From Peptoanaerobacter stomatis (lineage in GTDB: Bacteria; Bacillota; Clostridia; Peptostreptococcales; Filifactoraceae), in the NCBI RefSeq assembly GCF_000238095.2, contig NZ_JH815225.1, forward strand, positions 398,724 through 462,723: a stretch of 64,000 nt of DNA, given 5' to 3'. Shown piece by piece: positions 2,041-22,542 of the stretch. Position 1 is the first letter of the stretch. Every line of letters begins with the position of its first letter. Under the pieces are notes generated by a model, which searched no databases, was not told the DNA's origin, and was given only the letters and a program-made list of their open reading frames with translations. Position numbers and translations under genes: made by a program.

Positions 2041-2079
2041 AAAGGAGAGTATGATAGACGCTTATCATACAATAAAACT
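2041..2079 (+). promoter_or_regulatory. Hairpin between Shine-Dalgarno and start codon (copy 1)
   Basis: The SD AAAGGAG (2041-2047) is followed after one base by an 8-bp perfect stem, GTATGATA (2049-2056) and TATCATAC (2063-2070), with the 6-base loop GACGCT. The ATG begins 9 bases after the stem. Linear SD-to-ATG distance is 32 bases, far too long for normal initiation, but a folded stem reduces it to about 10. The same arrangement precedes rseP and glyQ. Confidence 0.75.
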
Positions 2080-3297
2080 ATGGATATATCAAATACTATA
2101 CAACCTGTTTTAATAGGAGGAGATATAAACGCATATTCTGTTGCAAGAGCGTTTCATGAACAATATGGTATAATAAGTATAGCTATTGCAAAAGATGTAC
2201 TCGGTGCAACGGATAATTCTAAAATAATAGATTTTTATGTTGATGAAAATTTTACAGATATCAATCATTTTATAGAATCTATGATAGAATTAGGCAATGA
2301 TTTAAAAGAAGAAGGCAAGACAGCTATACTTATAGGTACCAAAGATGATTATGTAGATCTTATAATAAAATCAAAAGAAGAACTGAAAGATTTATTTATA
2401 ATTCCATATATTGATGAAACTTTAAAAAACAGTCTTATTAATAAAGAAAATTTTTATAAACTGTGTGAAGAAATGAATGTAGATATTCCTAAGACAAAAA
2501 TATTGTCAAAAGACATGGAAATAACCGATTTTGGAATTATGTATCCAATTGTAATAAAACCTTCAAACCCTGTACTTTTTTGGAGTGACAGATTTGAAGG
2601 AATGGAAAAAGTTTATATAGCACAAAATAAAAAAGATTTTATAAGAATAGTAAGGCTGATATATTCAACTTATTATGATGATACACTCATAATACAAGAA
2701 TATATACCCGGTGATGACAGCAGTATATGGACACCATCATTTTATTGTGACAGAAATAAAAAGGTCAAGATGATGGCATTAGGTCATGTACTTTTGGAAG
2801 AGCACGTTCCTACCGCAATAGGTAACGATGCGGCTATAATAATGCAATATGTTGAAGAACCGATGGAAAAGATAAAATCATTTTTAGAAAAAATAGAATT
2901 CACAGGCTTTTGCAATTGTGACTGCAAATATGATTATCGTGATGGAAAATATAAACTATTTGAAGTAAATATACGTCAAGGAAGAAGTAACTACTCTGTA
3001 ACAGCAGCCTGTGCCAATATAGCGAAACTACTTGTAGAAGACAGAGTACAAAGAAAAGACCTTCCACTTATAAAACAAACAAAAGAATTATATTGGCATT
3101 TAATACCTAATTCAATAGTCTTTAAATATGTAAAAGACGAAAACTTAAAAAATAGAGTTAAGGAATTGATAAAAGAAGGCAAGGAAGTAAATACTTTCGA
3201 TTATCCTTATGACCTCAAACACAACCTGAAAAGAAGTATATATATAATGCTTTACAAATTAAACCACATCAAAAAATATATACAATATATGAAATAA
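2080..3297 (+). CDS. ATP-grasp carboxylate-amine ligase-like protein
   Basis: A 405-residue cytoplasmic protein with an ATP-grasp fold. The N-terminal lobe starts with PVLIGGDINAYSVARAFHEQ, a pre-ATP-grasp segment typical of this clostridial/lactobacillal group. The nucleotide-binding lobe has YPIVIKPSNP near 165 and IIQEYIPGDDSS near 208. The metal-binding acidic cluster is in the KLFEVNIRQGR segment near 300. The group includes D-aspartate ligases that amidate the peptidoglycan precursor, but the substrate cannot be decided from sequence. It stands alone, with its own terminator downstream and an unusual leader hairpin. The family call is secure; the substrate is unknown. Confidence 0.8.
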   Translation: MDISNTIQPVLIGGDINAYSVARAFHEQYGIISIAIAKDVLGATDNSKIIDFYVDENFTDINHFIESMIELGNDLKEEGKTAILIGTKDDYVDLIIKSKEELKDLFIIPYIDETLKNSLINKENFYKLCEEMNVDIPKTKILSKDMEITDFGIMYPIVIKPSNPVLFWSDRFEGMEKVYIAQNKKDFIRIVRLIYSTYYDDTLIIQEYIPGDDSSIWTPSFYCDRNKKVKMMALGHVLLEEHVPTAIGNDAAIIMQYVEEPMEKIKSFLEKIEFTGFCNCDCKYDYRDGKYKLFEVNIRQGRSNYSVTAACANIAKLLVEDRVQRKDLPLIKQTKELYWHLIPNSIVFKYVKDENLKNRVKELIKEGKEVNTFDYPYDLKHNLKRSIYIMLYKLNHIKKYIQYMK

Positions 3298-10163: not shown

Positions 10164-11162
10164 CTAACCTTTTTTAAATATATTTAAAACGTCTTTGTAC
10201 GTTACAATTATCATAAGACCTATTAAAAATATCATTCCTGCAAAATTTACCACATACTCCATTTTTTTATTAAGTTTCTTCTTTGTAACAAATTCACAAA
10301 ATGCTGTCAATATTCTAAAACCGTCAAGAGCAGGTATAGGAAGTAAATTCATTACACCCAAGTTCAACGAAATAAAAGCTATATAACTGAAAAACGTAGA
10401 AAAACCTGAACTTGTAGAATTTCCCATTTCTCTTACTATTCCCACAGGTCCGCTCACATAGTTAAAATCAACTTTGCCTGTAAATAATTTTGAAACAAAA
10501 TCCAACATTTGAGCAGTCATAGATGCTGTCTGATTAAAAGCATATGGAATTGCATTTACAAAGTGTTTTTCATATTTAGGATATATACCTATAGTTCTTC
10601 TACCACTTTTTTCATCAGGCATAACTTTTAATTCAGATAATTCACCATTTCTTTTAACTCCAATCGTAACTTCTCCGCTCGTTTTTCCAAGAGTTTTTGT
10701 TATTTCTCCCCAAGATGTTATTTTCACTTCATTTATAGATACTATTTCATCATCAATTTTTAAATTTATATCACTTGCAGGAGAATTTTCTACTACTCCT
10801 CCTACTTTATTTACAGGTACACCGCTTACTGAAAACAAACCTATAAAAACAACTATTGTCAATACAAAATTCATAAATGGCCCTGCAAATACTACAGCCA
10901 TTCTTTGTAAAGGAGTTTTTTTGCAAAAAGCATTCGGATCATCACTTTCATCATCTTCACCTTCCATGCTAACATATCCTCCCATAGGCACAAGCCTAAG
11001 ACTATATTTTGTACCGTTATACTCTTTTTGAAATATTGCAGGTCCCATACCTATAGCAAATTCATGAACAGTTATACCGTTCAACTTTGCAACCGCAAAA
11101 TGTCCAAGCTCATGAATTGCAACAACTATTCCAAAAACCAATAAAGCTAATATTATATTCAT
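10164..11162 (-). CDS. rseP: RIP metalloprotease RseP (site-2 protease)
   Basis: 332 residues, an intramembrane zinc protease that cuts transmembrane anti-sigma factors or remnant signal peptides. The zinc motif HELGH is at residues 17-21 in the first membrane span, and the third ligand is the Asp of NLLPIPALDG near 277. A PDZ domain (GGVVENSPASDINLKIDDEIVSI, shortened here) lies between the spans. The family zinc residues are intact, unlike the paralogue at 62307-62915. The start codon is preceded by a hairpin inserted between SD and ATG. Confidence 0.96.
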   Translation of the reverse strand: MNIILALLVFGIVVAIHELGHFAVAKLNGITVHEFAIGMGPAIFQKEYNGTKYSLRLVPMGGYVSMEGEDDESDDPNAFCKKTPLQRMAVVFAGPFMNFVLTIVVFIGLFSVSGVPVNKVGGVVENSPASDINLKIDDEIVSINEVKITSWGEITKTLGKTSGEVTIGVKRNGELSELKVMPDEKSGRRTIGIYPKYEKHFVNAIPYAFNQTASMTAQMLDFVSKLFTGKVDFNYVSGPVGIVREMGNSTSSGFSTFFSYIAFISLNLGVMNLLPIPALDGFRILTAFCEFVTKKKLNKKMEYVVNFAGMIFLIGLMIIVTYKDVLNIFKKG

Positions 11163-11199
11163 CTAATATCGTATGACAGTTTATATCATACTCTCCTTT
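11163..11199 (-). promoter_or_regulatory. Hairpin between Shine-Dalgarno and start codon (copy 2)
   Basis: On the reverse strand the SD AAAGGAG (11199-11193) and one A are followed by GTATGATA (11191-11184), the loop TAAAC, and TGTCATAC (11178-11171). The stem is 8 bp including one G-T wobble. ATG starts 8 bases after the stem. The wobble and the changed loop with a preserved stem argue for RNA structure, not just a copied sequence. Confidence 0.75.
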
Positions 11200-21610: not shown

Positions 21611-21648
21611 AAAGGAGAGTATGATATTATTTATCATACAGTCAAAAA
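21611..21648 (+). promoter_or_regulatory. Hairpin between Shine-Dalgarno and start codon (copy 3)
   Basis: AAAGGAG (21611-21617) and one A are followed by GTATGATA (21619-21626), the loop TTATT, and TATCATAC (21632-21639), an 8-bp perfect stem. glyQ ATG begins 9 bases after the stem. Layout and spacing match the copies before the ATP-grasp gene and rseP. Confidence 0.75.
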
Positions 21649-22542
21649 ATGAATTTTCAAGATATGATACTTAAACTGCAATCATACTGGGCTGATAAAG
21701 GTTGTATAATGGTACAAGCCTATGACAGCGAAAAAGGTGCAGGTACTATGAATCCTAATACATTTTTACGCTCACTCGGCAAAGAGCCTTGGAGAGTATG
21801 TTATGTAGAGCCGTCAAGAAGACCGGCCGATGCAAGATATGGAGAAAATCCAAACAGACTTTATCAACATCACCAATTTCAAGTTATATTAAAACCATCA
21901 CCTAATAATGTTCAAGATTTATACTTAAAATCTCTTGAAGCAATAGGGATAAATCCGTTGGAGCATGATATAAGATTTGTAGAAGATAACTGGGAAAATG
22001 CAACCTTCGGTGCTTGGGGCTTAGGTTGGGAAGTTTGGCTTGACGGCATGGAAATAACACAATTCACATATTTTCAACAAGTCGGCTCAATAGACTGCGA
22101 ATTGGAATCTGCCGAACTCACTTACGGATTAGAAAGAATAGCACTTTACTTACAAGAAAAAGACAATGTTTTTGATATAGACTATACAGACAATATAAAA
22201 TATGGCGATATATTTAAAAAAGCTGAATATGAACATTCCGTTTACGGTTTCGAAGCCTCTGATACAAAGATGTTGTTTGAGCTTTTTAACATATACGAAA
22301 AAGAGGCAAACTCTCTAATAGATAAAGGGCTTGTTATGCCCGCATATGACTATGTATTAAAAACTTCGCATGCATTCAACCTGTTGGATGCAAAAGGTGC
22401 AATAGGTGTCAGTCAAAGAGCATCATACATTGCAAGAGTAAGAAATATGGCAAAAAAAATAGCCTCTGCATATGTAGAGCAAAGAGAAGCTATGGGCTAC
22501 CCTCTTATGAAACTTGAAAAACTGCTAAGCGAGGTGAAATAA
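21649..22542 (+). CDS. glyQ: Glycyl-tRNA synthetase alpha subunit
   Basis: 297 residues, the catalytic subunit of the bacterial alpha2beta2 GlyRS that charges tRNA(Gly). The start [19 protein letters not shown] and the motifs [15 protein letters not shown] and [18 protein letters not shown] (class II active site) are typical. [16 protein letters not shown] follows. The SD lies upstream of an intervening hairpin. glyS follows directly. The 128-base upstream gap is too short for a glycine T-box, and none of its conserved words were seen. Confidence 0.97.

Follow-up and report, generated by a model that had tools for sequence, protein, structure and literature searches.

For split ribosome-binding sites, passages of a review name genes 38 and 25 of phage T4, in which structure between the Shine-Dalgarno (SD) sequence and the AUG cuts the gap from 22 to 5 and from 27 to 11 nt, and report that the function of the T4 site was tested by mutation (PMC3014915). 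In passages on IS900, with reference to Doran 1997, this member of the IS110 family is said to target translation initiation signals, and its hed reading frame to have no ribosome-binding site or start codon of its own (PMC8141618). IS110 elements of the IS621 type are described with a bridge RNA in parts of a further source (PMC11208160). Here we describe a hairpin that stands between the SD sequence and the start codon of three genes (one for an ATP-grasp-like protein, rseP and glyQ) in a 64,000-nt stretch of Peptoanaerobacter stomatis DNA (contig NZ_JH815225.1, positions 398,724 to 462,723; the whole stretch is called the window), and which is probably the solo end of an SD-inserting IS110-type element, or of a derivative of one, kept in place as a split ribosome-binding site.

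This reading is built on the anatomy, covariation and taxonomic spread of the hairpin, on the insertion site of the element and on a graded series of remnants, all of them seen in sequence comparisons. As in T4 genes 38 and 25, the SD sequence is linearly too far from the start codon and the intervening structure restores a working gap, here in silico. Unlike the phage genes, which the review passages present singly, one conserved sequence, borne by a mobile element, precedes unrelated genes across many Clostridia. Whereas bridging at the T4 site has been probed with mutants, bridging by the clostridial hairpin is proposed by analogy, and a 30S subunit would in the same way initiate across the folded hairpin. 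In the literature searched (titles and the starts of abstracts, with subscription papers and preprints mostly outside it) no transposon-borne split ribosome-binding site was found. The parts, namely a split ribosome-binding site, an SD-targeting IS110 element and a bridge RNA, are of known kinds, and their combination, together with the fixed remnants, appears to be new.

Hairpin sites of the window and its genus

The three genes of the window share the order AAAGGAGA, a hairpin with a GTATG…CATAC base, 8-9 nt and ATG, with a single A between AAAGGAG and the hairpin at each site. Upstream of the gene for the ATP-grasp-like protein (405 aa; 2080..3297, plus strand), AAAGGAG occupies 2041..2047 and the hairpin GTATGATA-GACGCT-TATCATAC lies at 2049..2070, with 8 bp and a closing G-U in the fold; the ATG begins after a spacer of 9 nt. 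The gene for the rseP-like site-2 protease (332 aa; 10164..11162, minus strand, with its ATG at 11162) is preceded by AAAGGAG at 11193..11199 and by the hairpin GTATGATA-TAAAC-TGTCATAC at 11171..11191, which contains one U-G pair and is followed by an 8-nt spacer. In front of glyQ, encoding the glycyl-tRNA synthetase alpha chain (297 aa; 21649..22542, plus strand), AAAGGAG is found at 21611..21617 and the hairpin GTATGATA-TTATT-TATCATAC at 21619..21639, again with a 9-nt spacer. An earlier note on this DNA had claimed this arrangement for three unrelated genes, including the differing loops and the wobble pair at rseP, and every site is as claimed; it had given linear gaps of 30-32 nt and folded gaps of 9-10 nt, and the distances measured from GGAG to ATG at the ATP-grasp-like gene, rseP and glyQ were 32, 30 and 31 nt, and 10, 9 and 10 nt when folded. 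Its gene labels stood for rseP (Pfam matches Peptidase_M50 and PDZ) and glyQ (tRNA-synt_2e), whereas the matches behind the ATP-grasp label are sub-cutoff: this protein had no Pfam match at E 0.001, and its NCBIfam matches, the best being to carbamoyl-phosphate-synthase-like and ATP-grasp models, were all below cut-off.

The exact stem occurs twice in the window versus 0.00 times expected in shuffled windows, the rseP copy differing by its U-G pair. When pieces of 60 nt were folded, the expected stem formed in each, with energies of -9.9 (ATP-grasp-like), -7.5 (rseP) and -10.6 kcal/mol (glyQ) and z-scores against shuffles of -2.46, -1.91 and -3.45, respectively. No Rfam family reached its gathering score in the window (1-64000; T-box and glyQ leader included) or in nine loci, and at a relaxed threshold the hairpin site gave just two matches, far under the gathering score.

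An exact-pattern search undercounts the hairpin in the window's own genome (G000; 2.33 Mb in three contigs) and its relatives, where it also gave control matches in two genomes, and a looser pattern and a covariance model (R1) were used instead. These found five copies in G000, at the three window sites, at serS and at an ETF-domain, etfB-like gene (folding z-score of -2.30), with linear SD-ATG gaps of 28-34 nt and folded gaps of 9-11 nt. Of 6007 first-look candidates in G000, the R1 search scored 150, and weaker copies may therefore have escaped it. With the looser pattern reversed as a control, 3 of 40 genomes had matches, and G000 and the two congeners searched (G001 and G002) were not among them; forward matches in four other genomes lay in coding sequence or had no gene after them (L035, L038-L040). 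A scan that assumed no stem sequence, covering 464 kb of G000 with 377 open reading frames in stretches picked so as to include the serS and etfB-like copies, gave 41 SD-hairpin-ATG candidates; the sole recurring sequence class recognised among them by eye was the GTATG/CATAC hairpin, with five copies. Five copies in the whole genome indicate a low-copy element and therefore not the genome-wide signal that the earlier note had supposed, and the whole-genome scan and covariance model that it had proposed added two copies in this genome and further ones in relatives.

In G001 and G002 the covariance model matches only before glyQ, where all three searched genomes of the genus have the hairpin; [Eubacterium] yurii has the same glyQ hairpin as G001, and Criibacterium bergeronii the same as G002. 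In the three genomes the SD sequence and GTATGA/TCATAC are constant at glyQ, and the loop varies in length and sequence, as do the spacer and the upstream region. The hairpin was found in none of five other genomes of the family with a glyQ match. At rseP, it occurs in G000 only among 19 fetched orthologues, and both congeners have an SD sequence at ordinary distance from rseP and no hairpin. A genome from another genus of the family (G006) has one copy before another gene (L249), with the altered stem TTATG/CATAA.

Spread and pairing of the hairpin in Clostridia

When named genomes were scanned, at least 119 stretches matched; 80 of these are listed as loci, the majority from uncultured Clostridia, Lachnospiraceae and relatives. 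In 66 of the 80, an SD sequence and a stem of at least 6 bp (five of its pairs fixed by the search pattern) are followed 7-12 nt later by ATG; loci were kept when the ATG lay 4-15 nt past the hairpin and opened a frame that spans 50 aa or more or runs off the locus, and the 14 dropped loci had either no start codon in place (12) or only TTG (2). In a class-wide sample the exact pattern was present in 9 of 391 genomes, and its reversed control in none of the genomes listed; one of the nine matches (G196), a full palindrome with no gene start in place, was set aside. Copies were found in 33 of 297 genomes of the window's own order and, at 1 to 9 per genome, in 53 of 117 genomes of the family f67, for which 104 of the 120 matches listed were fetched and read; in 101 of these 104 a frame of 40 aa or more opens with ATG where the model places the start. 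The genes behind the hairpin are unrelated to one another, and many are presumably housekeeping genes, judging by their starts. Only two of 30 fetched xthA genes have the hairpin and 28 have none, which indicates that the genes do not need it.

Across the 66 loci the linear SD-ATG gap is 25-38 nt and the folded gap, computed in silico, 8-13 nt (median 10). An SD-like tetramer is missing from the spacer in 63 of the 66 (it is present in L081, L083 and L116), so that the distant SD sequence is the sole candidate at nearly all loci. The search pattern fixed the lower five pairs, which are therefore uninformative in the loci found with it, and left the sixth free as R...Y. This sixth pair is paired in 66 of 66 kept loci (A-U 54, G-C 8, G-U 4, A-C 0); among the 14 dropped loci, five have A-C here. 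Two alignments were examined, which may share loci and whose counts are not summed. A1 has 63 rows (the 66 loci minus eight left out by hand, plus the five own-genome copies); its sixth pair is A-U in 50, G-C in 8 and G-U in 5, and its covariation score lies above all 500 shuffles. A2 consists of 65 of the 104 fetched f67 copies, found with a covariance model, hairpins of 33-34 nt and some duplicate, partial or irregular rows having been left out by hand. Two-sided changes occur in A2 at 6 of 8 pairs, the outer pair being G-C in 51 rows, A-U in 5, C-G in 2, U-A in 2 and unpaired in 5, and 93.4% of cells are paired versus 84.2% after shuffling. The observed pairing or covariation score of A2 was reached by none of 500 shuffles, which is support and not proof, because the shuffles ignore relatedness and the model can favour paired sequences. 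G-U and U-G pairs exceed A-C and C-A, by 6 to 2 and 9 to 3, as expected of RNA on this strand. A compensatory change from A-T to G-C separates L266 (G522) and L306 (G468), which concern the same gene in one genus and have near-identical flanks. Neither loop sequence nor loop length is conserved in A1 or A2. The proposal of an RNA hairpin shortening the SD-AUG distance, made in the earlier note by reference to T4, is thus supported by the covariation and by conservation at glyQ.

As a side observation, L250 (G018) and L424 (G530), from two genera, have a common hairpin, GTATAATGC...GCATTATAC / GCGTTATAC, before what is apparently the same gene; its lower stem is altered with pairing kept.

IS110-family elements with the hairpin end and their probable remnants

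G264, a genome of the window's order, carries a 1555-nt IS110-family element before each of five genes, with the transposase pointing away from the gene; these copies were sought through their hairpin end, which sets the scope of the count among IS110 copies. Judging by their starts, three of the five genes are probably xthA-, gidA- and guaA-like. The transposase matches PF01548 and PF02371 (DEDD transposase and IS116/IS110/IS902 domain). In 5 of 5 copies the left junction falls directly after GGAGA of the host SD sequence, and the right end consists of AAAGGAG, the hairpin and CATACAAGA, with the letters AAAGGAGAGTATGATTTAG...ATAATCATACAAGA, followed by the host spacer and ATG. When the host flanks are rejoined, the SD-ATG gap is 6-7 nt. 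The left end of all copies (L187, L188, L190-L192) holds a 12-codon frame directly behind the host SD sequence, so that the host SD and the element SD would swap genes. This frame recalls the host-dependent frame of IS900; the passages on IS900 make no mention of a replacement SD sequence with a hairpin for the host gene, and the present elements are clostridial (PMC8141618).

A related element in G177, 55% identical over 294 aa by sequence comparison, has its own SD-hairpin end. A 242-nt derivative without transposase (L291, in G499) is inserted after host ATGGAG, in the order host GGAG, a 26-codon frame, a guide-like segment, SD sequence, a 33-nt hairpin and host ATG. Its hairpin is identical in 17 of the 104 fetched f67 copies, namely in L291, in the solo hairpin L364 and in 15 copies at contig edges, which are taken as repeat ends, in the manner of repeats in draft assemblies. 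The noncoding segment beside the SD sequence contains CTGTGGACTTT...GGAGT in 8 of 9 rows (the noncoding ends L190, L181, L173, L291, L407, L408, L414 and L420); in L416 the upstream motif of the element is present and the guide-like segment is missing. As in IS621, the recombinase belongs to the PF01548 and PF02371 family and a long noncoding end lies beside the junction; unlike what is described for IS621, the guide-like segment holds GGAGT (PMC11208160). The segment may be a putative bridge RNA whose guide names the SD sequence; its target would be the SD sequence itself, because the guide-like segment contains that motif.

Under the proposed mechanism, an element of the IS110 type, or a small non-autonomous derivative, would insert directly after the GGAG of a gene's SD sequence. 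The interrupted gene would receive a replacement SD sequence, since the element end brings its own AAAGGAG and hairpin. A later deletion from the host SD to the element SD would remove the interior and leave the SD sequence, the hairpin, the original spacer and the ATG. The hairpin would then be retained by selection as a split ribosome-binding site in the style of T4 genes 38 and 25, because only the folded form sets the SD sequence 8-13 nt from the AUG. Given the long linear gap, loss of pairing should cost translation, and a gene that lost the hairpin altogether would bear no such cost. What is observed agrees with this expectation: the stem is kept, the loop is free and the whole element is absent in many relatives.

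Loci with different lengths of element are found. In L189, 36 nt of element end separate host AAAGGAG from the SD sequence with the hairpin; in L413, 13 nt separate the two. L411 and L301 retain roughly 25-30 nt of element and have no host SD sequence directly before it. In L364 the repeated 33-nt hairpin is unchanged behind a single SD sequence, with the element motif absent in the 400 nt upstream. Some further solo hairpins are shorter and still show the 5' letters of the element, GTATGATTATTTAA, and in others compensated changes reach into the lower stem. L189, L413 and L364 look like deletion stages, with 36, 13 and 0 nt of element left, and the simplest path to them would be a deletion between two nearby copies of AAAGGAG followed by shortening of the tip.

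No recognisable IS110 element was found in G000, G001 or G002, so that the window copies would be remnants rather than IS110 members. The sole PF01548 match of G000 (G000:C1:1311191-1311454; 32.0 bits versus a cut-off of 29 bits, 85 of 155 positions) lies within a frame of 1461 aa; the congeners are alike, with partial matches in frames of 1452-1463 aa, and the G000 match is unlikely to be a transposase. The window copies would stand last in the remnant series and are best read as solo transposon ends kept as probable split ribosome-binding sites. As their loops carry no recognisable element sequence and their genome has no recognisable element, we infer their origin from the shared SD sequence, stem base, position and trailing letters. 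The origin is best accounted for by the short mobile insert that the earlier note had mentioned in passing.

More broadly, we lean towards a group of RNA-guided IS110 elements programmed to the SD sequence, a target that very many genes offer, and surviving there by carrying a portable split ribosome-binding site that supplies the interrupted gene with a new SD; their deletion remnants would have become fixed as structure-dependent start signals of housekeeping genes in Clostridia. If so, an RNA-guided recombinase is aimed at a universal translation signal, a transposon can occupy the start signal of an essential gene and still leave it expressed, and housekeeping genes have come to depend on a hairpin that was formerly dispensable. 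The loci would then make up a large natural collection of split ribosome-binding sites, the covariation of which could yield rules for initiation across a folded spacer, and predictors of start sites that expect a short SD-ATG gap may misjudge hairpin-led genes.

Weighing the origin and function of the hairpin

Several observations weigh against an IS110-derived, translation-bridging hairpin. Among 225 fetched loci, including all 80 named ones, IS110 transposase occurs only at those of G264 and G177, and hairpins without IS110 are thus far commoner than hairpins with it. The window genome and its two congeners have no recognisable element, as said above, the loops of the five G000 copies resemble neither one another nor the mobile ends, and the 15 contig-edge copies are not seen whole. 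Folding is weak against shuffles for the G264 end (z-score of -1.10, matched by 29 of 200 shuffles) and for the serS copy (-0.77; 44 of 200). The two-sided pair changes of A1 were reached by 387 of 500 shuffles, and these shuffles, too, ignore relatedness. ATG is missing at the modelled place in 3 of the 104 f67 copies, and in L306, one of the two loci with the compensatory change, it is lost and reads ACG. Part of this evidence would suit a split ribosome-binding hairpin that evolved in the host, was conserved in Clostridia and was later captured by IS110 as a harmless end: solo hairpins are widely distributed and more numerous than IS110-linked ones in the fetched loci, the window genome is without a recognisable IS110 element, and the glyQ hairpin is retained throughout the genus as searched. 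We nevertheless consider a host origin unlikely, given that a solo copy occurs only here and there among orthologues (for xthA in 2 of 30 fetched genes, for rseP in 1 of 19), that two remnants begin exactly at the host SD sequence and that a solo hairpin is identical to the repeated end. Because of the last two points, the direction from element to solo hairpin is preferred.

The remaining accounts concern what the hairpin does. A regulated translational switch, in which the hairpin would bind a protein or melt with temperature and so control a regulon, would go with the conservation of the GTATG/CATAC stem before unrelated genes and with a strong SD sequence, part of which is paired in 3 of the 7 folds predicted. 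The SD sequence is unpaired in the other 4 folds, however, neither the sequence nor the length of the loop is conserved, and rseP, glyQ, serS, the ETF-domain and ATP-grasp-like genes, with many further functions elsewhere, make an incoherent set; we found no evidence of the control by protein or temperature that the earlier note had raised, and such a switch seems improbable. Still less credence is due to a palindromic DNA operator for a transcription factor, another of its suggestions: two of the three window copies are perfect inverted repeats, yet the conserved half-sites lie 4 to 14 nt apart among the 66 loci, the position is fixed relative to SD and ATG, the second side of the stem changes to match the first, and the excess of G-U over A-C (6 to 2 and 9 to 3) is not favoured by a DNA palindrome. 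Equally hard to credit is a mini-ORF in the leader that would start at the hairpin's internal AUG and be coupled to the main gene, for which the AAAGGAG-AGT-ATG spacing is short yet possible and some leader frames end beside the main start. The inner AUG is in frame with the gene in 30 of 66 loci (22 expected) and out of frame in 36 (19 and 17); no conserved peptide was seen by eye, yet the pairing of the stem is kept, and in the rseP copy of the window the putative leader reads ATG ATA TAA.
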